The translations under genes and the position numbers were made by a program. A stretch of DNA of 37,632 bases from a virus. The notes under the pieces were generated by a model, which saw only the letters and a program-made list of their open reading frames with translations, was not told the DNA's origin and made no database searches. The stretch covers positions 1-37,632 of the IMG/VR virus record IMGVR_UViG_3300034082_004705. One strand, given 5' to 3'. Positions 749 through 36,703 of the stretch are shown here, piece after piece. Numbering within the stretch: the stretch's first letter is position 1; each line of letters starts with the position of its first letter.

Positions 749-1451
749 TAGTCGTAGGGAGAGCGGGCGAAGTTCCGGCCATGATGGCGCGGCGGCAGAG
801 TTCAATGAGTCGTTTTCCATGGAGTACGCGGCCGATGCCGATTTTTTTGGTTCTGCGTGTGATTGAATAGTCAACTTCATGCACTCCCATGAGTTGCAGG
901 ACTTGCATCCAGTCGCGCAGGTCGTGAAACATGAACACGAGGTAGTCGTGGGTTTCAAAGGCCTGGCATTCCATGCGTGGAATGGTTTCGAGTTCTTCTT
1001 CGGGAGATCCTGCTTCGTCCATGAGTTTGCGAATCTCATCCTCCATGAATCCGGTCAGTTCGATATCGAAATCAGGATCGGCGTCAGCGATGGATTGCAG
1101 CACACGGCGCAGGTCGTCTTCATCAAGTTCGGCGAGTTCCGAGAGGCGGTTGTCGGCGAGCAAGTCGGCAAGTTCCTCGGCTTCGCTGGCATAATCTTGT
1201 TCATCAATCGGGATGAGTTCACAGCCGATGAGTAGTGCCGCTTCTAGGCGTCCATGACCGCGCACGATCAGGCCTGAGCGTTTCGACACGGTTACTGGAT
1301 TGCGCCAGCCTTGCTCTTGGATGATGGAGGCAAGCAACTGAATCTGATGCGCGCTATGGCGGTTCGGATTGCTGGGATTGGGTTTCAGCTTATTCGGATT
1401 AACGAGGTTGGTATGGGCGCAGTGCACAGGAATGCTCATGATCGGCGGCAT
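660..1451 (-). CDS. ParB-like nuclease-domain protein
   Basis: 263 residues. The N-terminal 100 residues form a ParB/Srx-type domain: LKPNPSNPNRHS, then QIQLLASIIQEQGWRNPV, then the signature VRGHGRLEAALLIG with the GHxR-type motif. An acidic stretch follows, rich in E and D (LADLLADNRLSELAELDEDD), then a domain ending in a basic tail. Solo phage ParB-like proteins of this kind sit near terminase genes and act as nucleases or DNA-binding factors in packaging or DNA-modification neighbourhoods; they are not chromosome segregation proteins, and no ParA is present. It is transcribed away from the packaging operon and heads a two-gene unit with the glycosyltransferase. The ATG at 1439 (MSIPVHC) is an equally good start. 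Neither start has a clear ribosome binding site. Confidence 0.8.
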   Translation of the reverse strand: MPPIMSIPVHCAHTNLVNPNKLKPNPSNPNRHSAHQIQLLASIIQEQGWRNPVTVSKRSGLIVRGHGRLEAALLIGCELIPIDEQDYASEAEELADLLADNRLSELAELDEDDLRRVLQSIADADPDFDIELTGFMEDEIRKLMDEAGSPEEELETIPRMECQAFETHDYLVFMFHDLRDWMQVLQLMGVHEVDYSITRRTKKIGIGRVLHGKRLIELCRRAIMAGTSPALPTTSDPVTESQPLDHQPQALPDGDATRSRKRG

Positions 1452-1534
1452 GCGTCAACTTCGGGTGGAGCAATCATTACGATGAGCACGCTAGACTTCC
1501 GAAATTATGAGGATAGGATGAAGCAATAAACCAC

Positions 1535-1834
1535 ATGACCGACAAAGAAATCAGACAGGAATTTACTCGTGTATCACCGGATGGCAAAACCGTGCAGGTG
1601 ATGAAAATTTCTTGGAAGGGCTCACACACACCCATCAGCAAATGGGTGGATTTTGGGCCGATTCTTAAAAGTGCAGATGCTCTGGAGATCAATGCAATCA
1701 TAGAACAAGCCATGAGCTGCGAGAAGTTTTTCAGACGTTGCGAAAAATGCCGTGAGCTCAACCCGATTGGTTGGATGCATGATAAAGAAATTTGCCAGAG
1801 CTGCGCCGAAAGATATCGGGGCGTTGTGTATTGA
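1535..1834 (+). CDS. small zinc-ribbon-like protein, unknown function
   Basis: 99 residues, family not recognised. The C-terminal third has a paired CxxC...CxxC arrangement (Cys69, Cys72, Cys87, Cys90) typical of a treble-clef or zinc-ribbon metal site. The N-terminal part looks like a small beta-rich fold (VQVMKISWKG). It is the first plus-strand gene after the divergent ParB-like gene and lies 30 bases before the terminase small subunit, so it probably belongs to the packaging operon. A DNA-binding or regulatory role next to the terminase would be reasonable, but the sequence does not show it. The start is the ATG at 1535; the only weak upstream purine stretch is AGGATGAAG, a little far away. 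Confidence 0.6.
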   Translation: MTDKEIRQEFTRVSPDGKTVQVMKISWKGSHTPISKWVDFGPILKSADALEINAIIEQAMSCEKFFRRCEKCRELNPIGWMHDKEICQSCAERYRGVVY

Positions 1835-1864
1835 TTTCTCAGTTGACGCATCCTCCCTCTGCGG

Positions 1865-2464
1865 ATGGAAGCAGTATCACCAGACATCGCCAAAAAACTG
1901 CTCTCGCGTGACTTCGCCAATCTGGTCGGTCGCGTGCAGAAGGGCGGCAAGTTGACTCGTGCTGAACGCGCCATGCTTCAAACATTGGCGACTGGAAGTG
2001 GAGCCGCTCCCGCAACGGCAGCATCCTACGTCGAGCTCGCAGCGATCCTAGGAGTCACACGTCAGTCGATCAACAATTGGAAGAAACGAAAAGACGCGCC
2101 CAAGCCCGCTGCGAATGGATTGCACGATGTGGCGGAATGGCGGGAGTTCATGCGACGTCATGATTTGAAAGGAAGTGAAACCACCGAACCGGGTGACATC
2201 GAATCATCACTCAAGGCGCGCAAACTTCTCGCGGAAGTAGAAGAGCGGGAGCTTCGACTCGGCATCAAACGCGGTGACTTCGTGGCAGTGGAAGAAGTGC
2301 GACAGGCATGGACCGAGCTCGTGGCGCAGGCAACCTCGATGCTACGCAAGAAGTTTGAACAGGAACTCCCTCCGATTCTTTCCGGTCTCGATGCCACAGG
2401 AATTCAGGAAGAAGCCCGCCGCGCCATCGACGAGGTGTTGACGATTCTCCATCAGGGCGAATGA
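1865..2464 (+). CDS. terminase small subunit-like protein
   Basis: 199 residues. Around residues 54-82 is a clear helix-turn-helix (YVELAAILGVTRQSINNWKK), the DNA-binding head expected of Nu1-type small terminases, which recognise the phage DNA packaging site. A charged helical region follows (LKARKLLAEVEERELRLGIK), then a segment resembling the C-terminal portion of Nu1-like proteins (RGDFVAVEEVRQAW). The stop codon overlaps the start of the large terminase gene (ATGA at 2461-2464), so the two are translationally coupled, as in lambda-like packaging modules. The order small subunit, large subunit, connector, portal, protease and capsid strongly supports the call. The exact family was not verified. 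Confidence 0.82.
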   Translation: MEAVSPDIAKKLLSRDFANLVGRVQKGGKLTRAERAMLQTLATGSGAAPATAASYVELAAILGVTRQSINNWKKRKDAPKPAANGLHDVAEWREFMRRHDLKGSETTEPGDIESSLKARKLLAEVEERELRLGIKRGDFVAVEEVRQAWTELVAQATSMLRKKFEQELPPILSGLDATGIQEEARRAIDEVLTILHQGE

Positions 2465-4278
2465 ACAAGATCGAACCCTCACGTAAAAGATTAGAGCGCA
2501 TCTGGTGTGAAGCATGGCGTCCTCCTGATCGCCGGCCACCGTGGGCATGGTGCGAGGAACATATCACCTCGATCCCCTACTCTCCCATCCCCGGGCGATA
2601 TCGTTCTGCCAACTCGCCATGGATGCGTGAGCCGATGGAGGCGCTGATGGACACTAAAATCCGTATCGTAAGCATCATTGCGTCGATTCAGAGCGGTAAA
2701 ACCTCTGTCGGTGAGTTCGGTCTCTGCCACATCATCGCCAATAACCCAGGTCCCACGCTATGGCTTGATCAGACCGACGATGACGCGAAGGACCAGAGCG
2801 AAAGCAGGCTACAGAAACTCTTCGACGAGTGCGAACCGGTGAAGGCGCTCTACCCTGCGAACCGGCATAAAAAACGCAACAATACCATCCACTTTGCCAA
2901 CGGCATGACGCTATGGGTGCTGGGTGCCAACAATAAAACCAACCTTCAGCGCCGTTCCATCCGTTGGTTGGTCTGTGATGAGACATGGAGATACAAAAGC
3001 GGTCACATGGCGGAAGCAGAGGCTCGTGTCACCGCATTCGGCTGGCTGGGCAAGTGCCTGTTCATGTCGCAGGGTGGTGAGGAAGACGACGACACTCATC
3101 GCAAGCATGAAACCACCGACATGCGAGTATGGACCTTTGCATGTCCTCACTGCCACCAACGCCAGCCGTTCAAGTGGGAGCAGGTCGAGTGGAGCAAAGA
3201 CGCCCGCGATGAATCAGGCGAGTGGGATTTCCAGAAGGTGCGCGACACCACCTCCATGCGTTGTGCCTCATGCAATCATTACTTCGATGACAGCGACCGC
3301 ACCCGCCGCGAATTGAACTTGTCTGGTCGCTATCTCGTAACGAATCCAAACGCCCCGAAAGAAAACGCCGGATTTCACTGGAATGCCCTGTGCGCTATGA
3401 GTTGGGGGCGACTGGCTGAACTTTACCTCCGAGCCAAAGCCGCAGCTCGTAAAGGCGACGTAAGTCTCATTCAACAGTTCTACCAAAAACGTCTGGCTCT
3501 GGCGTGGCGCGAGTATCTTGAGGACTACAAACTCGACATCGTCCCAGGCGGTTATCTCAAAGGCGAAACGTGGGACGGCGAGGCAGGAGTTGATGCGCAA
3601 GGACGATTGGTTCCAGCCGGTGAGCCATGCGCATGTCCACTTCGCATTCTCACGGTCGATTGCCAGATGGATCACTTGTTTCTTGTCGTTCGCGCATGGG
3701 CCGAGGATGGATCCAGCCGCCTGATGTGGAATGAGCGTGTGCTGACGTTCACCGATGTGCAAACCGTGCAGGAACGATTCGGCATCCACCCGAACTTAGT
3801 TTTTATCGATGCGGGCTACGCCACCTATGACGTCTATCGCGAATGCGCAGCGCACGGATGGACCGCCCTCATGGGCGACAAGCGAGCGACATTCACCCAC
3901 AAGGTCAAGGGTCGCAAATCAATCGAGAGGTTCTATTCCCCTCGTCGCAAAGTTGTCTTAGGTCGCGGGCAAACATGTTCGGTGTTCTATTGGTCGAACC
4001 TCAACATCAAGGACACTCTCGCGCGCCTTCGTCGAAATCAAAACCCTGATGACGGACCAGTCTGGGAAGTTCCTGATGACATCGATGAGGACTATCTCGC
4101 GCAGATGGAAAGCGAGCACCGTATCAAGAAGAACGGCAAGTGGATGTGGGAACGAATCGGAAGCCGCGGCAATCATTATTGGGACGCGGAAAACATGCAG
4201 GTCACCGCAGCAACCATGCTCAAGATCGTAGGACGAGAAGCCTCAACAACAGTTGACACTCCCAATGAAGAATCATGA
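2461..4278 (+). CDS. phage terminase large subunit, GpA family
   Basis: 605 residues, a usual length for lambda gpA-type terminases, which translocate and cut concatemeric phage DNA. The ATPase half shows a Walker A-like IQSGKTS (Lys80) and a Walker B-like WLVCDETW (Asp173, Glu174). A zinc-knuckle insertion follows, with FACPHC and MRCASC (Cys228, Cys231, Cys268, Cys271), common in this family. The C-terminal RNase H-fold nuclease half carries acidic residues at Asp400 (LTVDCQMD) and Asp450 (VFIDAGY), and a late HYWDAEN motif that could supply a third metal ligand. The gene is intact, overlaps the small subunit by ATGA and overlaps the following M15 peptidase gene in the same way. Confidence 0.93.
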   Translation: MNKIEPSRKRLERIWCEAWRPPDRRPPWAWCEEHITSIPYSPIPGRYRSANSPWMREPMEALMDTKIRIVSIIASIQSGKTSVGEFGLCHIIANNPGPTLWLDQTDDDAKDQSESRLQKLFDECEPVKALYPANRHKKRNNTIHFANGMTLWVLGANNKTNLQRRSIRWLVCDETWRYKSGHMAEAEARVTAFGWLGKCLFMSQGGEEDDDTHRKHETTDMRVWTFACPHCHQRQPFKWEQVEWSKDARDESGEWDFQKVRDTTSMRCASCNHYFDDSDRTRRELNLSGRYLVTNPNAPKENAGFHWNALCAMSWGRLAELYLRAKAAARKGDVSLIQQFYQKRLALAWREYLEDYKLDIVPGGYLKGETWDGEAGVDAQGRLVPAGEPCACPLRILTVDCQMDHLFLVVRAWAEDGSSRLMWNERVLTFTDVQTVQERFGIHPNLVFIDAGYATYDVYRECAAHGWTALMGDKRATFTHKVKGRKSIERFYSPRRKVVLGRGQTCSVFYWSNLNIKDTLARLRRNQNPDDGPVWEVPDDIDEDYLAQMESEHRIKKNGKWMWERIGSRGNHYWDAENMQVTAATMLKIVGREASTTVDTPNEES

Positions 4279-4709: not shown

Positions 4710-4972
4710 CCATGGCTCGCGGACTCTTCATCACCGGTTTTACAGTTGCCGAAGTTCTCGCCATCCAGCAGAAAGCGAAGTCGCTGCTCATGGAAGGCAA
4801 GACCATCATGAACTGGAACGACGCAGAGACTTCGGTCTCGAAGCAATTCACCATGCCAGTCGATCAGGTGCTAGAGGAATGTGGCTACGCACTCAAGGTG
4901 CTCGATCCGCAAACTTACGGCAGACCACGAACGGTATCGGCTTCTTTCATTCACGGACACCTTGCGAAATGA
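4706..4972 (+). CDS. small head-completion/connector-position protein
   Basis: 88 residues. The ATG at 4706 overlaps the previous stop (ATGA). The ATG at 4712 (MARGLFITG) lies at better spacing from the GGAAAGG purine stretch at 4696-4702 and may be the true start. No family recognised with certainty. The sequence looks alpha-helical (FTVAEVLAIQQKAKSLLMEG) and ends with a segment about DPQTYGRP. Its place between terminase and portal is where lambda-like phages encode gpW, the small head-to-tail joining protein; this assignment rests on position only. It overlaps the portal gene by ATGA at 4969-4972. Confidence 0.7.
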   Translation: MTMARGLFITGFTVAEVLAIQQKAKSLLMEGKTIMNWNDAETSVSKQFTMPVDQVLEECGYALKVLDPQTYGRPRTVSASFIHGHLAK

Positions 4973-6381
4973 ATCGCTTCCAATCCATCGCCCGACTCTT
5001 GCTCCCACCCGTGCTTTTACCCAAAGCATGGGGATCGTCGTTTGAGTCTGCGAACTGGTCGCCACGTCGTGGTGCGGTGCCAGGAGCTTCGCCATCAGAT
5101 GCACGCAAAGAACTCACGCCAGGCATCCGCACGGAACTTGTGCGCAAGTCGCGCTACCTTCACAAGAATTCTGGCTTCGTGCGCGAACTTGTGGCCAACA
5201 TGGCCATCTACTCGACTGGTGACGGCATCCGTGTTCAGGCCCAATCTTCCGACGCATCTTGGAATCGGAGCGCCGAAGAATACTTTTCCTATTGGTCCGC
5301 GCGCTGTGACATCACGCAGCGGTTTTCCTTTGAAGAATGCCAAGCGCTCGTTTGTCGGGGCATGGACATCGATGGCGAATACTTCGTCCACAAAACCCGC
5401 GACCTCGATGGCGAACCACGCATTCAGTTGATCGAGAGCCACCGCATTGGTGATGACTGGGGATCGAAGGAAACTGTCGATGGCGTCGGCCTCGATGCCT
5501 ATGGTGCGCCCGTGTTCTACCGCGTTCTGCAAGATGACAACACCGCTTACGATCTCCCTGCTTCTGCCATCCTGCACGTCCACGAACCTGAGTGGGCCGG
5601 TGGTGTGCGCAATCACCCAACGATCCAGCACTCGATCAATCATCTGCTCGATGAGATGGAGCTCCTTGCGTTAGAAAAGCATGCGGTCAAAGACAACGCC
5701 GATGTGTCCCGCATCCTCAAAACAGCACGAGGTGAGATCGACGACAATGGCGACTTCGTGGTGGGTAGTGCGCACACTGCGAATGACTCTAGCGACCCGG
5801 TCAGCTTACAACGCATCGTGGGAGGAAAGCTCGTGGCGCTCAAGCCTGACGAATCACTCGATAGCTTCCAGTCGAACCGACCCAGTCCGACCTTCACCGG
5901 ATTCCTCGAACACCTGCGTCGTGATTCAGCACTTGGCATGATCCCGTTCGAGTTCGCAGCGGATTCCAGCAAGGTTGGTGGTGCGGGAGTGCGTCTCATC
6001 GTCGCCAAGGCTGACCGTCGATTTTCCTTCCGCCAGATGATTCTCGAAAGGCGTCTCATTCGTCCGATCTGGGCTTATGTGATAGGTGACGCCATTGCCC
6101 GAGGACTGCTACCTCCCGTGCCGAGCTGGTGGAAAATGGCGATTGTAGGACCGAAGCGGGTCACCGTTGATGCTGGTCGCGAAGCACAGCAAAACCGCGC
6201 CGATGTGGAGGCGGGACTCAAGACCATCACCGATCACTACGCCGAACTCGGCGCTGACTTCCGCGAAGAAATCGAACGACGTGGCGCGGATGCCAAACTC
6301 ATCCTGGAAACTGCTGCCAAGTATGGCGTGCCTCCTGAGATGCTGTGGAAGGCAGCTGCGGGATTCATGCAAGCAAGGTAA
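4969..6381 (+). CDS. phage portal protein, lambda gpB family
   Basis: 470 residues from the ATG at 4969, which overlaps the previous stop; the frame is open further upstream but those codons belong to the preceding genes. Portal proteins form the dodecameric ring at one capsid vertex through which DNA enters and leaves. Recognisable features are an N-terminal ARKELTPGIRTELVRKSRYL segment, repeated aromatic/charged stretches (WNRSAEEYFSYWSARCD), the DIDGEYFVHK and RIQLIESHRIGD strands, a HVHEPEWAGGVRNHP segment, and a long C-terminal helix region (IRPIWAYVIGDAIARG). Length and neighbours fit PF05136-type portals. It is followed after 35 bases by the head protease gene. Confidence 0.9.
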   Translation: MNRFQSIARLLLPPVLLPKAWGSSFESANWSPRRGAVPGASPSDARKELTPGIRTELVRKSRYLHKNSGFVRELVANMAIYSTGDGIRVQAQSSDASWNRSAEEYFSYWSARCDITQRFSFEECQALVCRGMDIDGEYFVHKTRDLDGEPRIQLIESHRIGDDWGSKETVDGVGLDAYGAPVFYRVLQDDNTAYDLPASAILHVHEPEWAGGVRNHPTIQHSINHLLDEMELLALEKHAVKDNADVSRILKTARGEIDDNGDFVVGSAHTANDSSDPVSLQRIVGGKLVALKPDESLDSFQSNRPSPTFTGFLEHLRRDSALGMIPFEFAADSSKVGGAGVRLIVAKADRRFSFRQMILERRLIRPIWAYVIGDAIARGLLPPVPSWWKMAIVGPKRVTVDAGREAQQNRADVEAGLKTITDHYAELGADFREEIERRGADAKLILETAAKYGVPPEMLWKAAAGFMQAR

Positions 6382-8623: not shown

Positions 8624-8660
8624 CACCCTCTCTCGGGAAACTGGGAGGGGGTGATTTGTT
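8624..8660. repeat. 37-bp direct repeat, copy 1 (hairpin-forming)
   Basis: This 37-base segment is found without mismatch at 11797-11833. Its ends CACCC and GGGTG pair, with further TCTC/GAGG pairing, around a GGGAAACTG loop, so a transcript would fold. It lies just after the capsid gene. With the second copy it brackets the kelch-lectin gene. It may be a terminator-like or boundary element; no T-run follows directly. Confidence 0.75.
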
Positions 8661-11796: not shown

Positions 11797-11833
11797 CACC
11801 CTCTCTCGGGAAACTGGGAGGGGGTGATTTGTT
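11797..11833. repeat. 37-bp direct repeat, copy 2 (hairpin-forming)
   Basis: Exact copy of 8624-8660, located 33 bases after the stop of the kelch-lectin gene. The two copies place that gene in a 3.2-kb unit with identical ends, as expected if the gene arrived or duplicated through this repeat, or if the repeat is a common 3'-UTR hairpin that follows genes in this island. Confidence 0.75.
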
Positions 11834-13702: not shown

Positions 13703-13789
13703 ATGCTGCGTGTGGCATCCTTGATCGTCGGCCTCATGGTCGGAGCCATGTCCCTGATCGCCATGGTCAAGAAGATGCGGGGTAAGTGA
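13703..13789 (+). pseudogene. 3' remnant of the 74-aa holin-like gene
   Basis: 28 codons (MLRVASLIVGLMVGAMSLIA, then MVKKMRGK) match the last 27 codons of the 32414-32638 gene almost base for base, and homology continues about 45 bases past the stop (to about 13834). The 5' half is missing, replaced by the end of the AT-rich C39 gene. An ATG happens to be in frame, so a hydrophobic mini-protein could still be made. Confidence 0.7.
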
Positions 13790-13859
13790 TGAGAAACGCC
13801 GTACGCAGGGTGGTGTGGGACTCGGGAGCTAATCACTCTCGGGGACCTGATTCTGCCGC

Positions 13860-14228
13860 TTAATCCGTCCCCGCGATATCCCTGTCTTCATCGAAAAATG
13901 TTCCTTCAGGTGTCAGAATGAATCCATCGCATGCCTTCGAAAAATATACGGGCAAGAAACCAAGTAACGGGCGCAGGGGCATCTCCACCACCGTTGCGTC
14001 AACCCTTATAGCCCCACCGAGCATGTCGTCATAGCAGCAATCAATCACAAGCTGATATTCTTGGCCCGTCTCGGATTCAAAATCCGTTAACTCAAGATGA
14101 TCACCGTCCTGCGACTTCATCTTATCGGCAAGCTGCTCGTAAGCCAGGCCACGGAAGTAAGAAATTCGCTCCTTGAGTGCGTTGCGAGCATCACTGGGAA
14201 TGTCCTTGGCCTTCTTCATTTCTTGCAT
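13860..14228 (-). CDS. gene-cassette protein, unknown function
   Basis: 122 residues, not recognised. There is no signal peptide. The N-terminus is basic and helical (KAKDIPSDARNALKERISYF), the middle is acidic (SQDGDHLELTDFESETGQEY), and a beta-rich tail ends FDEDRDIAGTD. The start at 14228 lies directly against an attC-like palindrome, as expected for the first gene base after a cassette junction; the ATG at 14219 is an alternative. No ribosome binding site or promoter is visible. It is the last gene of the small minus-strand cassette array, and its stop lies about 30 bases from the block conserved between 13.8 and 32.65 kb. Confidence 0.6.
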   Translation of the reverse strand: MQEMKKAKDIPSDARNALKERISYFRGLAYEQLADKMKSQDGDHLELTDFESETGQEYQLVIDCCYDDMLGGAIRVDATVVEMPLRPLLGFLPVYFSKACDGFILTPEGTFFDEDRDIAGTD

Positions 14229-14312
14229 ACATCTAGCTCATCCACGGCGAAATGGAAGCTCGAATTCAAACGGGAGCGTTTACCGCCGTTGGATGAACTG
14301 GCTTGTTTCAAC
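14229..14312 (-). other. attC-like site (degenerate)
   Basis: Arm TCATCCACGGCG (14238-14249) pairs with CGCCGTTGGATGA (14284-14296): twelve pairs with one extra base on one side, the extrahelical-base pattern of attC sites. On the minus strand it starts with GAAACAAGCC and ends with CTAGAT where GTTAGAT would be expected, so the right core looks mutated. It shares its outer end with the next site at 14302-14374. Confidence 0.45.
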
Positions 14313-14374
14313 TAAGGGCGCAATCGAATGGACTCGCTATCACTCACCCATTCGCAGCACCCTTTATTGTTCTC
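14302..14374 (-). other. attC-like site, GCGAATGGG family
   Basis: CGAATGG (14325-14331) pairs with CCATTCG (14348-14354) around a loop nearly identical to the sites at 32747-32816 and 36775-36844. On the minus strand it begins GAACAATAAAGGGTGC and ends in CCTTAGTTGAAAC. The upstream gene (endonuclease/phosphatase-like) has its stop codon inside it. Confidence 0.5.
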
Positions 14375-15058
14375 CTTCTTTGTTTCGATTGTTGCTGCCA
14401 CGCCTACATGATCTGAAAGCCTTGTTCCATCTGGCGCAAATCGATCTAATATATTGATGGCGGATACGATCAAATCATTCGAAACCGCGAAATGGTCGAT
14501 AAGCCCTCGTCCTTCTTGATCGATCATCCCTTCCGTGGGCACGGTAAAACCGCCAGTCAGTGCAGTTGTCAGAGCCTTAGCAACTCGATCCGGTTGGGTA
14601 AGTCGCGGGATTCTTTGATTGAAGTCTCCAAGGATGCAAATGGGTTCTGGTGCCTTGGAATATCGATCCAATATCCGCCCAAGGGCCTCGCAATACGAAA
14701 CATGATCTTCCCACGGAGCACGATCTCTTCGGCCGCTGCGGACATGTGCATCCTTCCACGGGATGCAAACGCCAACGAATCTTATCCCCCCAGCAACTCC
14801 GGAAATAAATCGTCCTGATGGCATCATAGGGTCACCTGACATATCAGGGTAAACCCAAGGTTCTTTGCTCCAAAGGACGGCCTTCCGCCTGTCACCAGTG
14901 TTCGCATATCCATAATCAGAACCAGCTTCGATGCTATGGCCACCATGCAGAACAGTGCGAATTATCTCGGTATAGCAAACCACATCTGGATCAACCTTGA
15001 GGATCTCTTCTTTTATGATCTTAAGTCGATCACTTGTAGGTGACGCCCACTCAAGGTT
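14312..15058 (-). pseudogene. endonuclease/exonuclease/phosphatase-family gene with broken start
   Basis: The intact frame codes from a GTG at 14983 for 223 residues: GDRRKAVLWS, CILGDFNQRIPR, LIDHFAVS and LSDHVGVAATI are the GDFN, DH and SDH motifs of the Mg-dependent EEP (DNase I-like) fold, and CYTEI carries the metal-binding Glu. Homology continues upstream of the GTG: the same frame reads NLEWASPTSDRLKIIKEEIL, the expected N-terminus, back to 15058, where it meets a TGA. The nearby ATG at 15062 is out of frame. The first strand, which normally supplies an Asn ligand, therefore cannot be translated from a proper start, and the gene is probably dead or N-truncated. At the 3' end the frame runs through an attC-like site, which supplies the last residues (CCEWVSDSESIRLRP). 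Confidence 0.65.
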
Positions 15059-15213
15059 TCATGTGAGGCATTTCATTTCTTTGGAGATTGAGGTAGGAAC
15101 ACCGATTGCTCGGCGTCCCCCTCGCAGATCCCAGCGTGCGAAACTACCGCACTAGGCTCCTCGGATAGACGCGCAAACAGAGCGTGTCGATTCATTAGTT
15201 TGTTCGCTTTGAT

Positions 15214-15386: not shown

Positions 15387-15578
15387 ATGAAGTCACACAA
15401 ATATCTCAGCTATGTAGGGAAAATCGCCGGACTCGTATCCGCTCTCAACGTCATTCCCTTTGTCGATACATCCGTCGGTGTCATCGTCTTTGCCGCCGCT
15501 TCGATCCTCAAAGACTCGGTGAACCGCATCGGTGACCTACTCGACGACGGCAAGCCGAACAAGAGCTTCAAAAGCTGA
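15387..15578 (+). CDS. small holin-like membrane protein (63 aa)
   Basis: 63 residues from the ATG at 15387; the frame is open to 15318, but the shorter start follows TTGACA (15367-15372), which could be a -35 element. It has a short basic N-terminus (MKSHKYLSYVGKIAG), then a hydrophobic span through VIPFVDTSVGVIVFAAASIL, and a charged tail (NRIGDLLDDGKPNKSFKS). A truncated copy lies at 32176-32319, where it precedes the 74-aa membrane protein gene. A small membrane protein pair in a prophage suggests holin or lysis function; this is inference from size and context. The 74-aa partner is missing here; sequence after the downstream hairpin diverges. Confidence 0.6.
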   Translation: MKSHKYLSYVGKIAGLVSALNVIPFVDTSVGVIVFAAASILKDSVNRIGDLLDDGKPNKSFKS

Positions 15579-18764: not shown

Positions 18765-19871
18765 TTACGGGCATTCCACTCCGTTGAGGATCACTCGCCG
18801 CTTCTTGCGGTCAAAGCGGAAGGTGTTTTCCCACTGGCCGTCCTTGGGCAGAATGGCGAACCATTTCTCGGCGACCTCGGGCGTGGTCAGTTCACGGTAG
18901 TGTTTGAATATGATCGACGCCGAGTTCCCTGCCTCCAGCGCCACTTGATCGGCACTCTTGACCTTAGCAATGCGGTAAGTGATGAACGAGTGCCGCAGAA
19001 CGTTGCGTGGCCACTCGATTCCCACAGCACGTGCTAGCGCCGTGGCTTCCTTGATATACTCGCTCGACTTGATCACACGCCCACTTCTCTGCAATGGTTC
19101 CAGCCAAGCAGCAAGGTTGTCGGTGATGGGAACAAGGCGGCGCGATGCGGTCTTCGCCTGACCGGCGCGGATTTCGATCAATCGACGGCCAAGATCCACC
19201 GCATTCCAATCAAGTCGCGCGAGTTCCGCAGAGCGAATGCCAGCAAAGGCACTGATGGCCAGCAGTGGAATGAGATGCACAGGCGCGGCATGAATGATCG
19301 TGCGGAACTCATCCGGCGAGAACACCTCGATATCACTGTCCGCCACCTTCACCTTGCGCAACTGGCTCGATGCCGTGGGCTTGCCCTCAGGAAGATAGTT
19401 CTGTTCCAAGGCAAAGGAGAACAACAAGCTGACGTAGAGCAGCATCCCGTTGCGCGAGCTGGGCGACACGTTCAGACCACGCAGCCAGGCATCGATGTCG
19501 GCTGAGGTGACGTCGAGAATTTGCCCTGGATAGACAGTGGCGAAACGATTGAGCACCGAGCGGAGCTGGGATAGGTGACGTGTGCCCACTCCGTCTTGTT
19601 TCCGAGCCTCCAGCATCTGAGTGACCACCTCGGGCACCGTAGCGCGGCGGGTGATGTTGCCAAAGTGCTTGGAGTATTCGGTGGCCATTGCGGCGAGCGA
19701 TTCCGCACCAGCCAGTTGGCGCGCGTAGAGATAGTCCTCCAGAGCAATTACCTGGCAGGCTACCTCACAAGAAAAGGCGAAGAGTTGTGCCAGAGACTCT
19801 TCGACTCCCTTAGGGACATGATGCGTGATGCGAAAAAAAATCGGTTTGCACACCAAAAACTCTTTGATCAC
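18765..19871 (-). CDS. tyrosine recombinase / phage-type integrase
   Basis: 368 residues from a GTG at 19871. It has an SAM-like core-binding domain at about 75-165 (RHLSQLRSVLNRFATVYPGQ) and a catalytic domain with Arg213 (AFAGIRSAELARLDW), Lys240 (GQAKTASRRLVP), Arg293 (NVLRHSFITYR) and Tyr325 (IIFKHYREL). The usual His of HxxR is Asn290 and the later His is Asn316; I believe this branch often tolerates those changes, but activity is uncertain. The first about 20 residues look unlike the family, so the start may be truncated or the gene may begin elsewhere. It lies at the right edge of the phage/mosaic block, facing inward, where a prophage or island integrase would be. No matching att repeats can be seen because the other edge is outside the window. 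Confidence 0.85.
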   Translation of the reverse strand: MIKEFLVCKPIFFRITHHVPKGVEESLAQLFAFSCEVACQVIALEDYLYARQLAGAESLAAMATEYSKHFGNITRRATVPEVVTQMLEARKQDGVGTRHLSQLRSVLNRFATVYPGQILDVTSADIDAWLRGLNVSPSSRNGMLLYVSLLFSFALEQNYLPEGKPTASSQLRKVKVADSDIEVFSPDEFRTIIHAAPVHLIPLLAISAFAGIRSAELARLDWNAVDLGRRLIEIRAGQAKTASRRLVPITDNLAAWLEPLQRSGRVIKSSEYIKEATALARAVGIEWPRNVLRHSFITYRIAKVKSADQVALEAGNSASIIFKHYRELTTPEVAEKWFAILPKDGQWENTFRFDRKKRRVILNGVECP

Positions 19872-20158: not shown

Positions 20159-23100
20159 CTAGCGAGAGACTTTGAGGCGGATAAATCGTTTGCTGGTGTG
20201 TATGGGTGCGGTATCGGTGACAGTTACCGTTTCACCCGCCGCCCCTGGGTTTGTGGCGATAATGCTCCATGTGATCAGGTCATCTGAGCCTTCCACTATG
20301 TAGATCAAATCCTCGCGTGCGCGGCGAAAAGTGAGTGTCAGCCGCCCATTGGCATTCATTTGTGTATTCAGGGAGGCTTGATTGCTTCGAGCGTTGGCAC
20401 TCATTCCGAGAGCATACTTCATGAGGTTTGGCATTCCATCATTGCTCGGATTGGCGTTGTCGGCGGCATTGCCGGAATTTGCAATCGTGCCGAAGTTGGT
20501 GAATCTCCATTCCTCAAGGCTTGTCCATGTAGTGAGAGTCGTAGTCACTTGGCTGGAGCGATCGGTGCCGTTTAGCGCGACAATGCGGAAGTGATAAACG
20601 GTGCCTGGTAAAAGGCTGCTCACGCTGAAGGTAGAAGCTTCAGCACCGACGGCATTTTCCGTCCATGTCTCAGACGCGCTCGGTTTGTGTGAAATTAGGA
20701 AACCGGTGCAGACGGAGTTTTGCGTGCCGTCGGGCGTCCAGCTGAGATCGATGGTGAAATTGGTCGTTTGTGCCGCGAGGAAATTTGTGGGAGAAATCGG
20801 CACTTTTTCAATGATAAGATCGGAGCTGATGTAGCTGATTGCATAATTTGCACCCGCCGTGATGGAGCCCTGTAGGATGGAGTAGGATCCGGCGTTTTCA
20901 CCGGGGGCTCGATTCAAGCTTCCTGTGATCTCGTCTTCTCCCTCCAATCCGGAGCTTTGATAGGTGAGCGCTGGATCCACAGCTCCATAAAGTTTCGTCT
21001 TAGCGTCCGACGTGACCGTTAGGTTCTTCGGCACGATGATGAAGGGCAGGATGCTTGATCCCTCGAGGCTGGAATCTGTCGAGCTGGCCGTGACAACGTA
21101 GTTTCCGGCATTCTTCGGGGCCTCGGTGGTGGGGCCGTAGGAAGTGATACCGATTCCCTTGTAGGTATAGGCGAATGTGCATGGCACGGTCGAAGAGGCG
21201 GAGAAGACCTTGCCGCTGCCATCGTAAATCATGCTCTGCGGCGCAGTAAAGTTGATGCCGTCGTCGGGAGTGAAGACAAGCAAGTGGTCGGCCTGGTATT
21301 CGCCTGCGATCAATTGACCCGTGCGATGGTTGCGAGTGAGCCAGGTGGGATTGTCGATCGTTCCCCCGTCGGCGGCCGACCAAAGATTCCAACCTTCTCC
21401 GCCGTGTACAATCTCCCCCGTTGCCAGATCGTAGACCTTGCAGCCATCCAACATCGACATCCGGTAAAAATAAACCCCGTCGCAGGCCATGCCGTGCTCA
21501 TCAGTGGACCAAGTGTCATTGATGACTTGATCCCTCTCCCAAGTGAGTGTGAGGCCATCGCTCGATAGCTGGTAGAGCCTGACGGTGAACTGCCCGTCGA
21601 CGGTTGGCCCCATCACACCGAGCTTACCGTCTGGTGTATCAAAGAGGCTACCATACATCCACCAGGCACAGGTGAGCATTGGATGGGAGCTATCGACCGC
21701 GACCAATGTGCTCGACCAATCCGTCGTCGAGATCCGGTAGAGTGAATCGTCATTCCGCGCATAGAGATATCCACCGGCAAATGCCATCTGATTGTTTCCC
21801 AAGGGGGGAAGATTCTCAACGGCATGGCTCTCAATCCATGTGCCATTCAAATCGTAAACGCGTATTTCCGACGCCGACGAGTTGACAAAGATCCGCGTTC
21901 CATCACAGGCGATGCCTTGAATACTAGGCATACCTGCCAGTGTCATGACGGAGGATGTCGTCTGGCCGAGCGGATCACCACCGATTCCGAACAGGCGCGT
22001 CTGAGCGATGGTCAAAAGTTCGCTCTTTGTGCCGGTGAAATTGGCATCGTCAATGGTGGCTACCACTTCATAGGCGCCTACGTCACTCGGAGCCGTGCTT
22101 TCTCCGTTGTAGGTGAGTATTGTCGTAAGTCCTTCTGGAGTCGTGCTAACCGATGCGGACTTGGCTGTTCCGTCGTAGCTGGCGTTGAGGTTGCCGAGGG
22201 TGATGCTAGCCAAGGCTTTGTGCACCGTGACGCTCACCGTGCCCGCGGCGGCTTGGTAGTTTGTCGTGTCATCCGGCGTAAAGGTGAATGCATGCGTCGC
22301 AGTGCCAGCGTCTGGTTCAGTGGCGGGATTGGTCCAAGCGAATGTGCCTGCCACCGATGCGATGCCGCCGTCGAGCGTCGAGTGGGAGAGCGATTGGCCA
22401 TAGGTGATGGCGGATGCGATGGGCGGAGTTGTCACGGTAGGTGTGGCCTTGTTGACCGTGACGCTTACCGTGCCGGTGGTGGAGGTGTAATTTGCCGTAT
22501 CGTTCGGAGTGAAAACAAAGTTTTGTGTGGTCGTGCCGGTGTCGGGAGCGGTGTTGGAATTTTCCCAAGTGAAAGTGCCTTCGACCGAGGCCTCGCCACC
22601 GATGAGTGTGGATGAGCTGAGCGTTTGGCCTGCGGCGATGGGCGTGGCTGTCGGACTGGTGAGAACGCTTGGCGTGGCCGGTGCGACAGTGACATCCAAC
22701 TCAGCAGTGAGGGCATTGTAGTTCGTTGTGTCGTCTGGTGTGAAGGTGACCGTTTGCCTCATGGTGCCTGCGGAAACGGGAGCGGTCGAGGTGAAGGTGA
22801 AGGTGCCCGAAACGCTGGTGATTCCATTGGCGAGGGTTGCTTCGGCGAGGGTTTGACCGTGAATGGCTCTTGTCACGGCGGGGAGGGCCACTAGCAGGGG
22901 GTTGGCCTTGTCCACCTTCACCTTTATCGAGACAGTGACCGGTTGATAGTGCTCGGTATCGGTGGGTGTGAAAACAAGGTTGTGCAGGCTCTCGCCCGCA
23001 TTGGGAATGGTGCCGGGATTTTCGAAGGCAAAAGTGCCCGGCACGCTGGCTGTTCCTCCGAGGAGGGGATAGGAAGCAAGTGATTCACCGTAGGTGATTC

Positions 23101-26100
23101 CGGACCGATAAGGTATGGACAAAATGGTCGGCCTGCCTTTCGTGATGGTGAAGTCGATCGTCTTTGTGGCGGCAAAATCGGGATCCGTGCTGGTGACCGT
23201 GACGGTATAGTCGCCGGGCTCGGTCGGAGGCGTGACGCTGGCGGCGTAAGTGGTGCTATCGCGGCCGGTGTAGGTGGAAGAGAATGCGAAACCGGCAGAC
23301 GAGGTGGTAAGGATTGATTGGAGCTCAGGCACTGAAACTGCAACTCCTTCTGGCGTGCGATAGACCTCGCCATTGACTCGGTAGGCTGCGGTGCCGCTGC
23401 CATTCCCCCACCACACTACCGACCCATCCGCCTTCATGGCATAGCTTCTGTTGTCGCCTGCGGCGATCGCCACGACATTGGTAAGATTCCACGGCACTAG
23501 GTTCACATTCGAGCCGGTAGGCGTGAATGGAGTGCCGCTACCCCAAGCGACCACAGTGCCATCCGATTTGAGCGCCACTCGATGATTCCGGCCCGCGGCA
23601 ACGGCCACAACTTCGTTGAGTCCAGCAGGAGGGGCTTCCAAACCCAAGGCAACTACCATGCCGTTAGATTTGAGCGCCACCATCCCCCCATCCGAGCTTG
23701 CATGGATCGCGATCACTCCGTTCAAGCCATCGGGAATCGTCGGTTGCGCTCCCCAAGCGACTACGGTGCCATCCGACTTCAGGGCATACGATGTGGAATC
23801 GCTGCCCGTGATTCCCACCACATTTAAAAGACCAGCGGGCACATTGCATTGACCTGCAGCATTGTCGCCCCAGGCAACGACGGTGCCGTTGGACTTGAGG
23901 GCGAGTGCATGGTTGCTGCCCCGGGCGATTGCCACAACACCGGATAGGTCAGACGGTGCCATGCCCATCCACGAGGCCCCCCATTCGATAACCGTGCCGT
24001 CGGACTTAAGTGCCATCGAGCTGCTAATTCCCGAAGCCACAGCAACTACACCCGTGAGACCGGCGGGCACATTGCACTGCCCTGCAGAATTATCGCCAGT
24101 GGCAAAGACTGTGCCATCGGATTTGACGACTAGGACATGGCCCCACCTACCTGCCGATAGGAGTGAGCTTCGTGACACGCGAAATGGTTTCGCCAGTCCA
24201 TCATAGGCTAGGCTTGCTGGTGGAACGACTGCGAGGTTCAGTGGGCTCACGATGCCATCGTAAACGGTCATAGGCACCGAGAAGGTTACCGCCTTGTAAT
24301 GAGCGATGTCCGCAGGAATGAAGGTCACGCTCTGGCTGGCGGGGCCGGGGTTAGGACTGGCGAATGGGAAGGAAAACTCGAAAGTACCTGGCACACTGGC
24401 AATGCCGCCGCTCAGGGTCGAGGAGTTGAGGAGTTGACCCAAGGTGATCGCAGATGCGGATGGCAGTGATGAGATGGTAGGAGTCGCGGCATTCTCACCC
24501 TCAACAAGAACGGTTATGCTAGCGGTCACCGAGTGGTAGTTGTTCGAATCCGTTGGCGTGAAGGTGATGCTTTGTGTGCTTGCTCCGGCCGGGGGAATGA
24601 AACTCGGCGTGCTGAACGCAAAAGTTCCGTTCACGCTGGCGCTGCCACCATTTAGGGTTACTGCCGAGAGGGCTTGCCCTTCCGTGATGATCGCAGCGAC
24701 CGGCAGCGAAGTCAGTGCAGGTGTGGACTTGGCGATGGTGAAATCCACCGTCTTGCTGCCGCTGAAATTCTGATCGGTGGAGGTGACCGTGAGCGTGTAA
24801 TGCCCCGCATTGGTTGGTGCCGTGGAGCTCGCTGCGTAAGTCGTGCCAGCCCGACCTGCATAACTAAAGCTGTAGGCGAAATTTCCCACACTGGTCGCCA
24901 CGGCGGCGGGGAGCGAAATCTGACTTGAATTATTGTCCCCCCAGCCGAGCAGCGAACCGTCGGACTTGAGCATCAGGAGATGGCTTGCCCCGGCCGAGAT
25001 GGCAATGACGCCGCTGCCGCTGGAAACGACTTCATTGGATCCAAACGAGCCCCAATAGACCAAGCTGCCATCTTTCTTCAGCGCGTAGGACTCGTTGTCG
25101 CCGGAGGCAATGGCCACAACATTCGTGACGCTGCTCGGGACCGTGCATTGCCCAAAATTGTTTCGGCCCCATGCGACCACAGTGCCATCAGATTTCAAAG
25201 CGATGGAGTGGTCTTGCCCGGCAGCGATCGCGACAACGCCCGACAATCCCGCCGGCACCGTGGATTCGCCGTATTGATTGCCATCCCAAGCCACCACAGT
25301 GCCATCGGATTTCAGGGCAAGCGCGTGGTCCCAGCCCGCGGCGATAGCGATCACACCGGTGAGCCCCGCCGGGATTTTCAGGGCATGTTCCTGGGTCGTA
25401 GGCATGTTGGATCCATTGTCCTTCATGCCAATAGCGGCAACGGTGCCGTCCGCTTTCAAAACGAGACTCAATCGGCCGCCACCTGCCACCGCGATTCCAT
25501 TGGTGATGGTCGGCGCCGGCGGGTCTAAGACAAGGTAGGGCGGATTAGGTGATAAGGAATATCCGGTGTAAGGAGCGAATGAGCCTTGGATATTGGCACG
25601 TTGGTGTTTGTCATTCTTCCCCCATCCCACCACTGAACCGTCTGCTTTCAGGGCAAGGCTGTGATAGAAACCGGCGGTTACCTGAATGACTCCGGATAGA
25701 TTCACAGGAACGTTGCTTTGATCATCGCTGTTCGATCCCCACGCCACCACCGTGCCGTCGGCCTTGATGGCGAGCGAATGAGCGAATCCGGCCGCGATGT
25801 GCGGCATCTGTGATACGGCATGGGTTTTGGCTGTGCCATCATACGTTAGTGAAGGCGGCGCGATCAGAGAGATCGGCCGGGAGGAACTTGAGACAAGGAT
25901 TGGAACACTGGCTGTAGCGGAGTTGTAGTTGGCGGTGTCGGTCGGTGTAAAAATGGCCTGCAGCGTGCGGGCGCCTGTCGCGAGGGTCACGCCGGATGCG
26001 GGGGAATAAACAAAAGATCCGGCGACGCTTGTGGCTGCATTGAGTTGTGTTGCGGAGAGTGCCGTGCCGTAGCTGATGCTTGCCGGTGTAGCCCATGTGA

Positions 26101-29100
26101 TTGCTGGCGTGGCCTTGGTGATCGTGAAGGTCTGGGTGGCGCTTCCAGTGTAGTTCGCATTGGTTACCGTTGCCGTAACTGCGTAGTTGCCGGCGTTGGT
26201 CGGTGGTGTCGAGGTCGGGCTGTAATTTGTGCTACCAATCCCGCTGTAGCTGTAGGTAAAGCCCGTGGAGATGCCCGATGCGGAGGCGGTGAATGTTTTT
26301 TGAGTGCCGCTGTAAACGAGGCTGGCAGGGGCCGTAAATGCGATGTTACTCGAGTTGAGTGCCACGGTGTTGGTCGTGATACTTACCGTGGAGGAAACCG
26401 GATTGTAATTGGCTGTATCGGTGGGCGTGAAAGTGATCGGGTGATTTGAGGCTCCGGCACTTGGAGTCGTGCTCGGGGTGTTGAATGCAAAAACGCCCGG
26501 CACGCTCGCCGTGCCGTTGCTCAAGCTTGAGGCAGCAAGCGATTGGCCGTAGGAGATCGCCGAGACGGTGGGATTGCTGGTGATCGTCGGCGTGGCCTTG
26601 CCAATGGCGAAATCGAGGCTCTTCGTGCCCGTGTAATTCGCATCATTGATCGAGACAGTCACGGTGTAGCTGCCCGCATAGGTTGGCGCCACAGTGCTTG
26701 GGCCATAGCTCGTTCCCGCGCGGCCCGTGTAGATGTAGGTGAAACCCGAGACACCCGCAGCTGTGGCGGCGTGGTTTTTTGAAAGTCCGTTGAAGGTGAG
26801 ATCCTCGAGAGACGGAAGAGTGATGTTTTGTGAGGAGACGGCGGCTTTGGTGACCGTGATGGTGCCGGTCGCGACCGCCGGGTTGAAGTTAACCGAGTCG
26901 GTCGGGAGGAGAGTCACGCTGAGCGGGTGGGTGCCGACTGGCAGGATCGATCCGATAGCTGGGGAATAGACCTTGGAGCTCGGAATGATCGTGTATCTGC
27001 CTTGGTTCCACCAATACGGGCTACTGGAATCAACATGATTGCTGTTAAGCGCGGTGCCGTAGGTGATGGAATTTTCGCGACTGAGGTAGTATACTATCGG
27101 CGTCACTTTGTTGATCGTGAAGTTCTGCGTGATCGTCGCGCCGTTGCCGATGGCGGTGACCGTGTAGTCGCCGGCATTGGTCGGCGCGGTGGTCGAGGCG
27201 GCGTAGGTCGTCGCTCCGCGGCCTTCGTAGCTGTAGGCGTAGGTCACGTTAAAGGTGTAGCTGCGCCCGGGAAGGCCAACGGAGGGAAACTGGGCTGAAG
27301 CGGGCGGGCTGTTTTTGCCGCGGCTGTTGTCGCCCCAGGCAACGATCGTTCCGTCCGATTTAAGGGCAATCGAGTTTCGCCATCCGGCGGCGAGGGCGAT
27401 GACGCCTGTGCCATTGACCGTTGCGGGCACCGTTGTTTCACCTCGGTCGTTGCCTCCCCATGCGACCACACTGCCATCGGACTTTATCGCGAGCGCGTGG
27501 CCGTCACCGGCCTCGATGGCAATCACGCCTGAAAGCCCGGCTGGTAGATTCCAATATGTTTCGGTGGGCTTACCCCAAGCGACCACCGATCCATCCGATT
27601 TCAATGCCAGCCCGAAGTTGGTGCCGGCCGAGATCACCGTCACGCCCGAGAGCCCTTGCGGCAGGTAGCTGAGTCCGCTCATCTCGTTGCCCCAGAAAAC
27701 GACCGTGCCATCGGCCTTGAGAGCAAGCGAACCAAACTCACCTGCGGCGATGTTTCTCACATTGGCCAAGCCCGCGGGCACATTGCATTGGCCATGGGTA
27801 TTGTCTCCCCATGCCACAACCGTGCCGTCGGTTTTGAGGGCAAGCACATGTTTTGCACTAGCCGCGATTTTATCGACCCCCGTGAGGCCGGCGGGCATCG
27901 AGCTGCTGTAGCCACCCCACGCGACCACCGTCTTATCGGATTTCAAAGCGACTGAGAGTGCATCGCCCGCTTGCACAGCGACGACTCCGCTGAGCCCGTT
28001 GGGCACGCTTGTTTGGCCATAAGTGTTTTGGCCCCATGCGAGCACCGTGCCATCGGGCTTCACTGCCAGCGTGTGATCGTTGCCCGTGGAAATTCCAGTC
28101 AGCGCGCCGAGTGCCGTCGGAAGAAATTGTTGCCCGTAGCCGAACGAACCGAAGCTCACCACCGTGCCATCGGCCTTGAGGGTGATAGTGTGATACCGGC
28201 CGGCCGAGATCGCAATGACCTCCGAGAGACCGGCAGGAATGTTGGCGAGTCCGGAGTTGTCTCGATCGCCCCATGCAACGACCGTGCCGTCGGATTTCAC
28301 CGCGACCGAGTGACTGGTTCCCGCCGAAATGGCCACCACGCCTTTGAGTCCTGCCGGAACTTTCGACTGCAATGATCCGTTGTTGCCCCATGCGACCACG
28401 GTGCCATCCGACTTAAGTGCGAGGCTGTGCCATTCGCCTGCGGAGATGGCCACCACATTGGTAAGGTCGGCTGGCGGGTAATCACGCACTCCCCAGACGA
28501 CGACCGTGCCATCCGACTTAAGCGCCATTGAGTGATATACGCCTGCCGATATAGCCACGATACCGGTAAGACCGACCGGAACAGTCGTCTGGTTGTTGTC
28601 GTTTAATCCCCAAGCGACGACCGTGCCGTCCGACTTGAGTGCAAGGTTGTGATTCCTTCGTGCCGAAATCGCCACGACGCCGCTCAAGCCTGCGGGGATG
28701 CTCGACTGACCTCGCGAGTTCTCCCCCCATGCAACGACTGTGCCGTCGGACTTGAGGGCCAGCGTGTGATAATCGCCAGCCGACACCGCAACGACATTGT
28801 TGAGGCCAGCTGGCACGTTGGTTTGGCCTTGGTTATTGGTGCCGAATGCCGATACGGTGCCATCCGACTTGAGGACGACGGAATGAATGCGGCCAGCCGA
28901 AACGAAAGGCTCATTGCGAGGCGCGCTCGCGCTTTGGAAATTTTTTGGCGATCCATCGTAAGTGAGGCTGCTCGGCGGATAGAGCGTCGCGGAAGGCGAC
29001 GATTCGCGATTGGCGATGCCGTAGAGGTTGAAGCTGCCGCTGGCGGGAGTGATGGTGATCGTGGCTGCTCCGCTGGAGTCCGCCAGGTACTTATAGTCGA

Positions 29101-32175: not shown

Positions 32176-32319
32176 ATGATAGCTCTCAATGTCATTCCCT
32201 TTATCGATACATCCGTCGGTGTCATCGTCTTTGCCGCCGCTTCGATTCTCAAAGACATGGTGAACCGCATCGGTGACCTGCTCGACGACGGCAAGCTGAA
32301 CAAGAGCTTCCGTGGTTGA
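32176..32319 (+). pseudogene. 5'-truncated copy of the 63-aa membrane protein gene
   Basis: 47 codons beginning MIALNVIPFIDTSVGVIVF and ending LLDDGKLNKSFRG, nearly identical to residues 19-63 of the 15387 protein (for example FVDT to FIDT and SVNRIG to MVNRIG). The first 18 residues are lost at a junction with AT-rich sequence, but an in-frame ATG at 32176 could still start a shorter hydrophobic peptide. It precedes the hairpin and the 74-aa gene, giving the most complete copy of the module. Confidence 0.6.
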
Positions 32320-32346
32320 TGCCACACCATTTTTCCCACGATCCGC

Positions 32347-32384
32347 CATCCGAGGTAAGAGGACCTGTTTCCCTGCCTCGGATG
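32347..32384 (+). other. conserved RNA hairpin, copy B
   Basis: CATCCGAGG (32347-32355) pairs with CCTCGGATG (32376-32384), loop 20 bases, followed by TTGCGTTTGGTGCC as in copy A. Two stem positions differ from copy A with pairing kept on both sides. It lies between the two small membrane protein genes, so it may control or process their joint transcript. Confidence 0.55.
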
Positions 32385-32413
32385 TTGCGTTTGGTGCCGC
32401 GTAGGAACACACG

Positions 32414-32638
32414 ATGAGCTCATGTGGTATTGTAGAAACTGCCCTAACCATGCGCACCCACCTCGACAGCGATTCGATTCTCACTGCCACGGTAGGCATT
32501 GCTTCTCCCGTGCTTGGAGTCATCACCTCATTCCAAGAACAGATCGAGTGGACGCTGCGTGTGGCATCACTCATCGTCGGCCTCATGGTCGGAGCCATGT
32601 CCCTGATCGCCATGGTCAAGAAGATGCGGGGGAAGTGA
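32414..32638 (+). CDS. small two-helix holin-like membrane protein (74 aa)
   Basis: 74 residues from the ATG at 32414, which has AGGA nine bases upstream (GTAGGAACACACG); an ATG at 32450 would give 62 residues. Two hydrophobic spans (TATVGIASPVLGVITSF and VASLIVGLMVGAMSLIAMV) are separated by QEQIEWTLR, with a basic end KKMRGK: the layout of a class II-type holin. A holin function is inferred from size, topology and repeated association with phage-derived genes; family not verified. A 3' half copy lies at 13703 and a 5' scrap at 18.69 kb. About 40 bases after its stop the cassette array begins, at both 13.8 and 32.68 kb. Confidence 0.6.
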   Translation: MSSCGIVETALTMRTHLDSDSILTATVGIASPVLGVITSFQEQIEWTLRVASLIVGLMVGAMSLIAMVKKMRGK

Positions 32639-32675
32639 GTGAAAACATGCGGGTGGTGTTGGACTGGGAACTAAT

Positions 32676-32812
32676 CAAGTCGTTAGGCAAGGGCTGCATA
32701 CCACACAAAACGCATAAGGTCGGCGATCACAGGTCGCTCCGGGCTTGTTCAACTAAGGACGCAGGCGAATGGGCTCGTTATCACTCACCCATTCGCTGCA
32801 CCCTTTATTGTT
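32676..32812. repeat. 137-bp repeat, copy 1 (cassette end with attC-like site)
   Basis: Starts CAAGTCGTTAGGCAAGG and ends CTTTATTGTT; by eye it matches 36704-36840 with four mismatches. It contains the attC-like site at 32747-32816 plus about 70 bases between it and a perfect GTTAGGC core at 32682-32688. The repeat marks two equivalent cassette boundaries, one next to the 74-aa gene and one next to the IS91-like element. Confidence 0.85.
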
Positions 32813-33309: not shown

Positions 33310-33434
33310 GGCTAACGTCGAAGTCCTCTCACACCTGCCCGGGGGCGAGGCTTCGACTATGGGTTGAGGGTTGAATGGTCATGACGGATTGAACTCGCGG
33401 CGGGGCAGGTGTTGAGAGCGACGCCTTGTTCGGC
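33310..33434 (-). other. attC-like site between the membrane-protein and lipoprotein cassettes
   Basis: On the minus strand it runs from GCCGAACAAGGCG to CGACGTTAGCC. Arms CTCTCACACCTGCCC (33326-33340) and GGGCAGGTGTTGAGAG (33403-33418) pair over fifteen positions with one extrahelical base. The terminal loop is long (about 60 bases), like the variable loops of chromosomal-integron attC sites. The core boxes deviate slightly from the RYYYAAC/GTTRRRY consensus. Confidence 0.6.
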
Positions 33435-34056: not shown

Positions 34057-34145
34057 GCCGAACGTTAGATGTGGAGGCACCGGCGGATCAAGCTCCGATT
34101 TAACTAGAGGCGGTATCGCCGGTTGCCTCGCATGACTTGTTGAAC
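34057..34145 (-). other. attC-like site interrupted at its outer end by the IS91-like element
   Basis: On the minus strand it runs from GTTCAACAAGTC to ATCTAACGTTCGGC. Arms GAGGCACCGGCG (34074-34085) and CGCCGGTTGCCTC (34117-34129) pair over twelve positions with one extrahelical base. The cassette gene that should precede it is not present; the IS91-like element sits there instead. GTTAGAT (34064-34070) on the plus strand is a further consensus-like core. Confidence 0.58.
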
Positions 34146-34243
34146 TAAGCCGCTGCGCGTCAGGGTGTTAGATGATGGTGGCATCGTCGAGAAGAAATCG
34201 TTAGTTGGATGGTCATGGGTGATGTGCTCAGGTTCGTTCTGCA

Positions 34244-35299: not shown

Positions 35300-35330
35300 T
35301 TTAGCGCGCGATTGATCACAGAAAAATATC

Positions 35331-36497: not shown

Positions 36498-36703
36498 AAC
36501 CTCCCGCATCACACCACTGCCGAGCTGGAATCCATCTTTCGCTCACGAAACATGGCAAAGCAGAGCCACGCCCGCGAAGAGGAAAATACGAAAAAATCCC
36601 GCATTCCAAACCCAGTCCAATCACTCCATCATCTTCATCCGAGAAGAATCGGCACCAAGAACTCGCAAGAAACAACGCCAAAACAGCGGGAGTGCGAGCC
36701 AAC

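Follow-up and report, generated by a model that had tools for sequence, protein, structure and literature searches.

A cluster of attC sites lacking an integron integrase is termed a CALIN. Qi et al. (2023, PMC9892861) reported integrons and CALINs in 21 phages; in the available part of that text, attC arrays, sometimes with an integrase gene (intI) and an attI site, are described from both temperate and virulent phages, and phage attC sites are stated to work with IntI1 in an assay. Two related phenomena are described in the accessible portions of other reports: cassettes may use non-classical genomic targets, named attG (PMC12901181), and group IIC-attC introns insert by a TTGT/T rule, antisense to the cassettes (PMC7923331).

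Here we describe the gap between two small genes, geneB and geneA, of verrucomicrobial temperate phages. We read it, with a probability of about two in three, as a fixed cargo site that holds an integrase-less, phage-borne integron platform. Like the phages of Qi et al., these genomes contain attC arrays; the available part of PMC9892861 does not mention Verrucomicrobia and describes neither a single locus common to many phages nor an attI kept without intI. Several attC sites without intI, as in locus L032 with four sites, are also the mark of a CALIN, but at least nine of the loci here keep an attI too, which puts them outside that name. Chromosomal integrons of the same order (G003:C372, G011:C182, and G002:C112) share the attC family (G003 and G011) and the attI (G003 and G002) of the phage loci. 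Unlike the phage loci, they have an intI, which in G003 and G002 is located behind attI and points the same way as the cassettes. As at attG, to judge from the accessible part of PMC12901181, cassettes lie beside genomic sequence other than attI or attC, namely at the geneB stop, whereas here a recognizable attI is present on the geneA side. The literature searched, which lay outside most subscription papers, yielded no account of this locus and none of integrons in verrucomicrobial phages.

Results

A site between geneB and geneA occurs empty and filled

The DNA analyzed is IMG/VR record IMGVR_UViG_3300034082_004705, 37,632 bases, referred to as the window at its full length. It carries tailed-phage genes: those for terminase, portal, S49 protease, and the major head protein lie at 1.9 to 8.6 kb, and 18765-19871 encodes a phage-type integrase. 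The window also has a perfect 37-bp direct repeat (8624-8660 and 11797-11833), hairpin-like and with TTTGTT at its end, which brackets a 960-aa kelch/lectin-domain gene after the major head gene and may mark another cargo insertion. A single minus-strand open reading frame (ORF) of 3913 aa with many internal repeats occupies 20159-31900.

geneB is a small membrane-protein gene of 74 aa, and geneA is another small membrane gene found 3' of geneB in verrucomicrobial phages and prophages. Relatives of geneB were found at 20 loci in Verrucomicrobiota genomes and on viral contigs, and relatives of geneA on viral contigs and, within the order, in 41 of 386 genomes. The window has a complete geneB at 32414-32638, within a plus-strand segment (32182-32638) that also contains a geneA with a truncated start. 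The sequence-only reading had placed a cassette array at the end of the 74-aa gene near 13.7 kb. The gene end is indeed there, but merely as its last 27 codons (13706-13786); with the stop codon, this plus-strand fragment (13706-13789; 100% to residues 48 to 74 of the 32414-32638 copy by tblastn) is the left edge of the cargo site. The right edge is geneA at 15387-15578 on the plus strand, preceded by CGTTGACA. The label "holin-like" was not borne out, as the window copy of geneB had no Pfam or PHROG match and 17 relatives gave matches solely at E values of >0.01.

We compared 40 distinct loci with geneB followed by geneA, merging those with identical 120 bp around geneA and skipping geneA matches that started after residue 3. 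Another 18 geneA rows, whose contigs lack geneB, were excluded. Most loci are metagenome-assembled genomes (MAGs) or metagenome contigs, and many viral records are fragments. The spacing from geneB stop to geneA, measured in L005 (which has several geneB copies) from the nearest copy, is bimodal: 19 loci are empty (17 to 19 bp) and 21 are filled (260 to 4212 bp). The L006 contig (L027), outside the 40 since a contig end cuts its geneA, is 94.4% identical to L005 over 5711 bp up to the geneB end, after which L005 has a clean 4.75-kb insert. The cargo ORFs are mostly antisense. A tape-measure gene lies upstream of the site (L005, L032, L036, and L203) and a phage integrase lies downstream (L036, L041, and the window).

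Cargo intervals carry attC and attI homologous to those of chromosomal integrons

Loose attC scans gave many false matches and were replaced by a model, R1, built on chromosomal sites alone: nine attC sites beside intI in two MAGs (G003 and G011), themselves picked by a loose scan. R1 was run on 85 loci (0.92 Mb) and recognized attC sites with E values down to 3e-19. Matches with E values of <0.05 were found in the geneB-side cargo of L005, L028, L032, L036, L041, L188, L196, L201, and L205, that is, in 7 of the 21 filled loci and in L028 and L032, whose contigs end before geneA. For the 80 phage-type loci (L136 to L138, L007, and L008 being left out of the 85, and matches with E values of ≥0.05 dropped), 14 of 21 matches fell within cargo intervals, which make up 4.9% of the bases, matches in the same locus not being independent of one another. 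The other seven lie outside the gap: three in the window at 33.3 to 37.5 kb, two in L188 past geneA, one in L032 upstream of the tape-measure gene, and one in L079. At least two attC sites without intI, as in a CALIN, are present in L005, L041, L201, and L032, the last with three of its four sites at E values of <0.05 and one at 0.06. In L036, L028, L032, and L201, the geneB stop codon lies within the R' box of the last attC, and over 117 bp the terminal attC of L036 shares 95.7% identity with a chromosomal attC of L138.

At the opposite end, the right flanks of the cargo resemble one another, and in most rows their common stretch ends in GTT at the cassette start. In L036 and its closest relatives it includes two direct repeats, and it matches the sequence adjoining intI in G003 and G002. 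With the G003 attI as the query, nhmmer (E < 0.001) found it in nine phage-type loci (L204, L036, L041, L192, L188, L212, L203, L196, and L200); seven are among the 21 filled loci, while L204 and L192 have no geneB on the contig. The attI generally precedes geneA by no more than about 200 bp. The L188 copy that adjoins geneA scores an E value of 0.01, and stronger copies are further away; attI-like copies are at 2-66, 2700-2750, 4146-4241, and 4866-4989 of that locus, with attC matches on both sides of geneA. L032 has a second cassette unit in plus orientation (3053-3768), just upstream of the tape-measure gene, in which a weak attI (E value of 0.02) precedes the unit and an attC has an E value of 6e-10.

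Among genomes of the order, the attI sequence is present in 26 of 386. For about 9 of the 30 chromosomal loci retrieved (L250, L252, L253, L254, L263, L264, L265, L271, and L274), the neighbor of this sequence is an intI or part of one; in L249 it is geneA, and the remaining loci show remote recombinase matches or, over the flank covered, none.

Taken together, attC (E < 0.05) or attI (E < 0.001) was detected in 10 of the 21 filled loci (L005, L036, L041, L188, L196, L200, L201, L203, L205, and L212); the window would be the eleventh solely if its attC is counted by family similarity. Ten others had neither attC (model R1, E < 0.05) nor attI (E < 0.001), and the gap therefore takes other cargo too. 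L034 has the right flank of L036 but other cargo. The right border CGTTGACA is unlike an IntI crossover, and the empty sites differ from the product expected of clean IntI excision; the first arrival of the platform was therefore probably a different event. A fixed insertion site at a phage gene, as the sequence-only reading had proposed, agrees well with the empty and filled relatives, the clean 4.75-kb insert, and the chromosomal-type attC and attI.

The anchor stretch is an intron remnant

That reading also held that two arrays in the window share one anchor, and the two anchors are alike (13705-13835 versus 32554-32677; 132 columns, 87.9% identity, E value of 1e-37). It took the roughly 45 bases after geneB for an attI-like sequence. 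Judged by its sequence, this stretch is instead the 3'-terminal part of a group IIC-attC intron, comprising the 3' strand of domain V and domain VI (13798-13852, plus strand; 94.5% identical to L237 1662-1716, in an intact intron). The same intron end was found in L007, L008, and L228 to L230, and in L008 it comes directly after a short ORF, which we take for the last part of a group II intron maturase. With the 44-residue maturase end as the query, 35 of 288 genomes were matched, with no match in plasmids and none in Pfam. An intact copy in G274 encodes a 541-aa protein with RVT_1 and GIIM domains, and its downstream stretch is 94.5% identical to window positions 13798-13852. By eye, its 5' end GTGTG comes after ...GGATTGT of an attC, and TAGCC follows its 3' end. 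The G274 copy thus resembles the group IIC-attC introns in the accessible part of PMC7923331 in its reverse transcriptase/maturase, its insertion at TTGT/T of an attC, and its antisense orientation to the cassettes. The window differs from them in retaining 3' ends alone, one of them a 55-bp remnant (94.5% identity) fused to geneB. Because the stretch matches an intron 3' end, the geneB anchor is not an attI; in relatives, attI sits at the opposite end of the array, by geneA, and the chromosomal attI query (nhmmer) had no match in the window.

geneB joined to the same remnant recurs in a related MAG, repeatedly (L007 and L008). L008 7250-13900 holds three complete copies of geneB and a partial one, with cassette-type genes between them. 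The MAG records L007, L008, L015, L019, and L020, which carry these phage genes, bear the label Akkermansia muciniphila.

A second group II intron domain V-VI remnant (15087-15161, minus strand) was matched by RF00029 at 32.7 bits (gathering threshold, 40; E value of 3.7e-4). It belongs to another intron and occupies the position where relatives have attI. The right flanks of L205 and L224, as well as L005 (10765-10964), contain the segment around it. At gathering thresholds, Rfam had no match in the window, and the group IIC-attC type was not significantly recognized by Rfam.

A candidate decayed cassette array at 13.86 to 15.06 kb

The two minus-strand ORFs that had been pointed out, 13860-14228 (122 aa) and 14312-14983 (223 aa), exist, but the frame of the latter is closed by a stop at 15059-15061. 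The first is a cassette-type ORF without a Pfam or PADLOC family. The second belongs to a cassette-type gene (14312-15043) with an Exo_endo_phos domain (Pfam, 6e-8), broken upstream by that stop. For 10 cassette-type proteins, PADLOC returned no family.

Between these genes lies a putative minus-strand attC (14229-14307; hairpin z score of −4.2), assigned by blastn similarity to the family of L005 8006-8094 and 9265-9351 (L005 8011-8090, 87.5%; L005 9254-9347, 78%). Those L005 relatives match R1 at E values of 0.04 and 1.2; in the array itself, 14229-14307 included, R1 gave no attC match at E values of ≤10. With at most one attC, the array is not a CALIN. We interpret it as a degenerate integron cassette array in the cargo site, because of its position, the similarity of 14229-14307 to the L005 attC, and the intron remnant.

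The palindromes between the flagged genes had been described as all of one GCGAATGGG type. Three copies of this type exist in the window, but a single one lies within 13.86 to 15.06 kb, and the element at 14229-14307 is of a different attC family. The hairpin region 14300-14388 is 88% identical to 36770-36857, and 14300-14371 is 90% identical to 32742-32812. The exact palindrome GCGAATGGG..CCCATTCGC is present in two of the three copies (none expected in 100 shuffles), the 14.3-kb copy being imperfect. To judge from the repeats and their extent, the element of about 65 bp (14306-14375) is inside the R'' part of the attC at 14229-14307. It starts after AAC and stops before AAG, within the would-be R'' of another site, a placement read in the three window copies, in L007, twice in L008, and in L136 and L205.

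The same hairpin forms one end of an element with a tyrosine recombinase and an IS91-type transposase (Pfam) at about 34136-36850 on the plus strand. This 2.7-kb element is 97.8% identical to L136 4273-6991 (G001), and a second copy starts in the window (37506-37632, 100% identical to 34136-34262). Three different attC sites have an end of this element in their R'' box. These data suggest an IS91-like element that targets attC. That the hairpin is the cassettes' own attC, as had been assumed, is doubtful because it lies inside another site (AAC...AAG) and ends the IS91/recombinase element; it is probably an insertion targeting attC. The 351-aa recombinase of the 2.7-kb element (34244-35299) was considered as an integron integrase and set aside, as it adjoins the IS91-type transposase and both move as one element.

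The second array of the window (33.3 to 37.5 kb) has three minus-strand attC sites by model R1 without intI and so qualifies as a CALIN: 33310-33434 (E value of 3e-18), 34057-34145 (1.3e-5), where the IS91/recombinase element starts in the R'' box, and 37391-37515 (6e-18), where the second copy starts. Self-comparison of the window found no segment common to the two arrays besides the anchor and the hairpin element, and no cassette is shared. A single large segmental duplication, named beforehand as the alternative that would defeat the shared-anchor idea, is ruled out as a full account by this self-comparison, the states of the 40 loci, and the L005/L027 pair.

Integron integrases are found in host genomes

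No integron integrase, beside attI or elsewhere, scored above the TIGR02249 cutoff in the 40 viral records, a set outside which the window lies; 6 of 12 host MAGs had one above the cutoff. The other parts of a complete integron are present, with cassettes starting from a fixed GTT at attI in nine phage-type loci and attC at cassette 3' ends. In G001:C51 (L136), a contig of the MAG closest to the window, intI adjoins geneA and the cassettes are divergent. This complete integron integrase (1381-3008, 430 aa) has its 3' end 150 bp from geneA, and intI-bearing platforms therefore exist at the same place.

Discussion

In the best-preserved relatives, the order is geneB, attC, one or more minus-strand cassettes, attI, and geneA, with no integron integrase found. 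From such comparisons we propose that an integron lost intI but retained attI on settling in the geneB-geneA gap. The IntI of the host chromosome would add cassettes at attI (G^TT) and remove them at attC, with the geneB stop codon as the far end of the array, in four phages within the R' box of the last attC. The phage would be a carrier that borrows a host enzyme, and cassettes may still be moving. In the window, an intron remnant takes the place of the last attC, a palindromic element lies in the putative attC beside it, and the position of attI is occupied by a second intron remnant. Host IntI probably serves the platform; for the fuller proposal, that a phage lineage has domesticated an integrase-less integron and loads and unloads cassettes with host IntI, shuttling them between chromosomal integrons, we see even odds.

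The main competitor is that the gap is a moron hot spot of the ordinary kind, close to the integrase end of temperate phages, in which integron pieces arrived passively, now and then, by illegitimate or homologous recombination and formed no working platform. Counted in its favor are the 10 of 21 filled loci without an attC or attI signal, a right border that is not an IntI-type junction, the absence of intI from the 40 viral records, and L034, which combines the right flank of L036 with other cargo. Across several phages, however, the GTT behind attI is the shared starting point of different cassettes, and the terminal attC meets the geneB stop at its R' box in four; this is more order than passive arrival predicts, and we consider the hot spot unlikely, though a serious rival.

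The anchors in the window could also be mere copies, a short duplication of the geneB end and intron remnant with unrelated genes beside it and no insertion site. Their 88% identity and the repeats of geneB with the same remnant in L007 and L008 fit this, and for the anchor it holds. Since it does not extend to the empty and filled states of 40 loci and leaves the L005/L027 pair and the attC and attI at the gap unexplained, we regard it as very improbable. Still harder to credit is that the palindromes are transcription terminators of moron genes: a model of chromosomal attC sites recognizes many of them, with E values down to 3e-19, and a chromosomal-type attI is at the opposite end, even though strong hairpins at gene 3' ends look like terminators and attC sites have weak terminator activity according to the available part of PMC9892861. 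For the GCGAATGGG element itself, a terminator is possible.

Phage integrons have so far been reported as scattered cases. If the integrase-less platform is real, a conserved phage locus with attI and without intI would be a standing receptor for host cassettes, and it would offer a concrete route by which the cassette pools of different bacteria are mixed. The dependence of a phage on host IntI would become testable, and the matched empty and filled phages would suit direct experiments.
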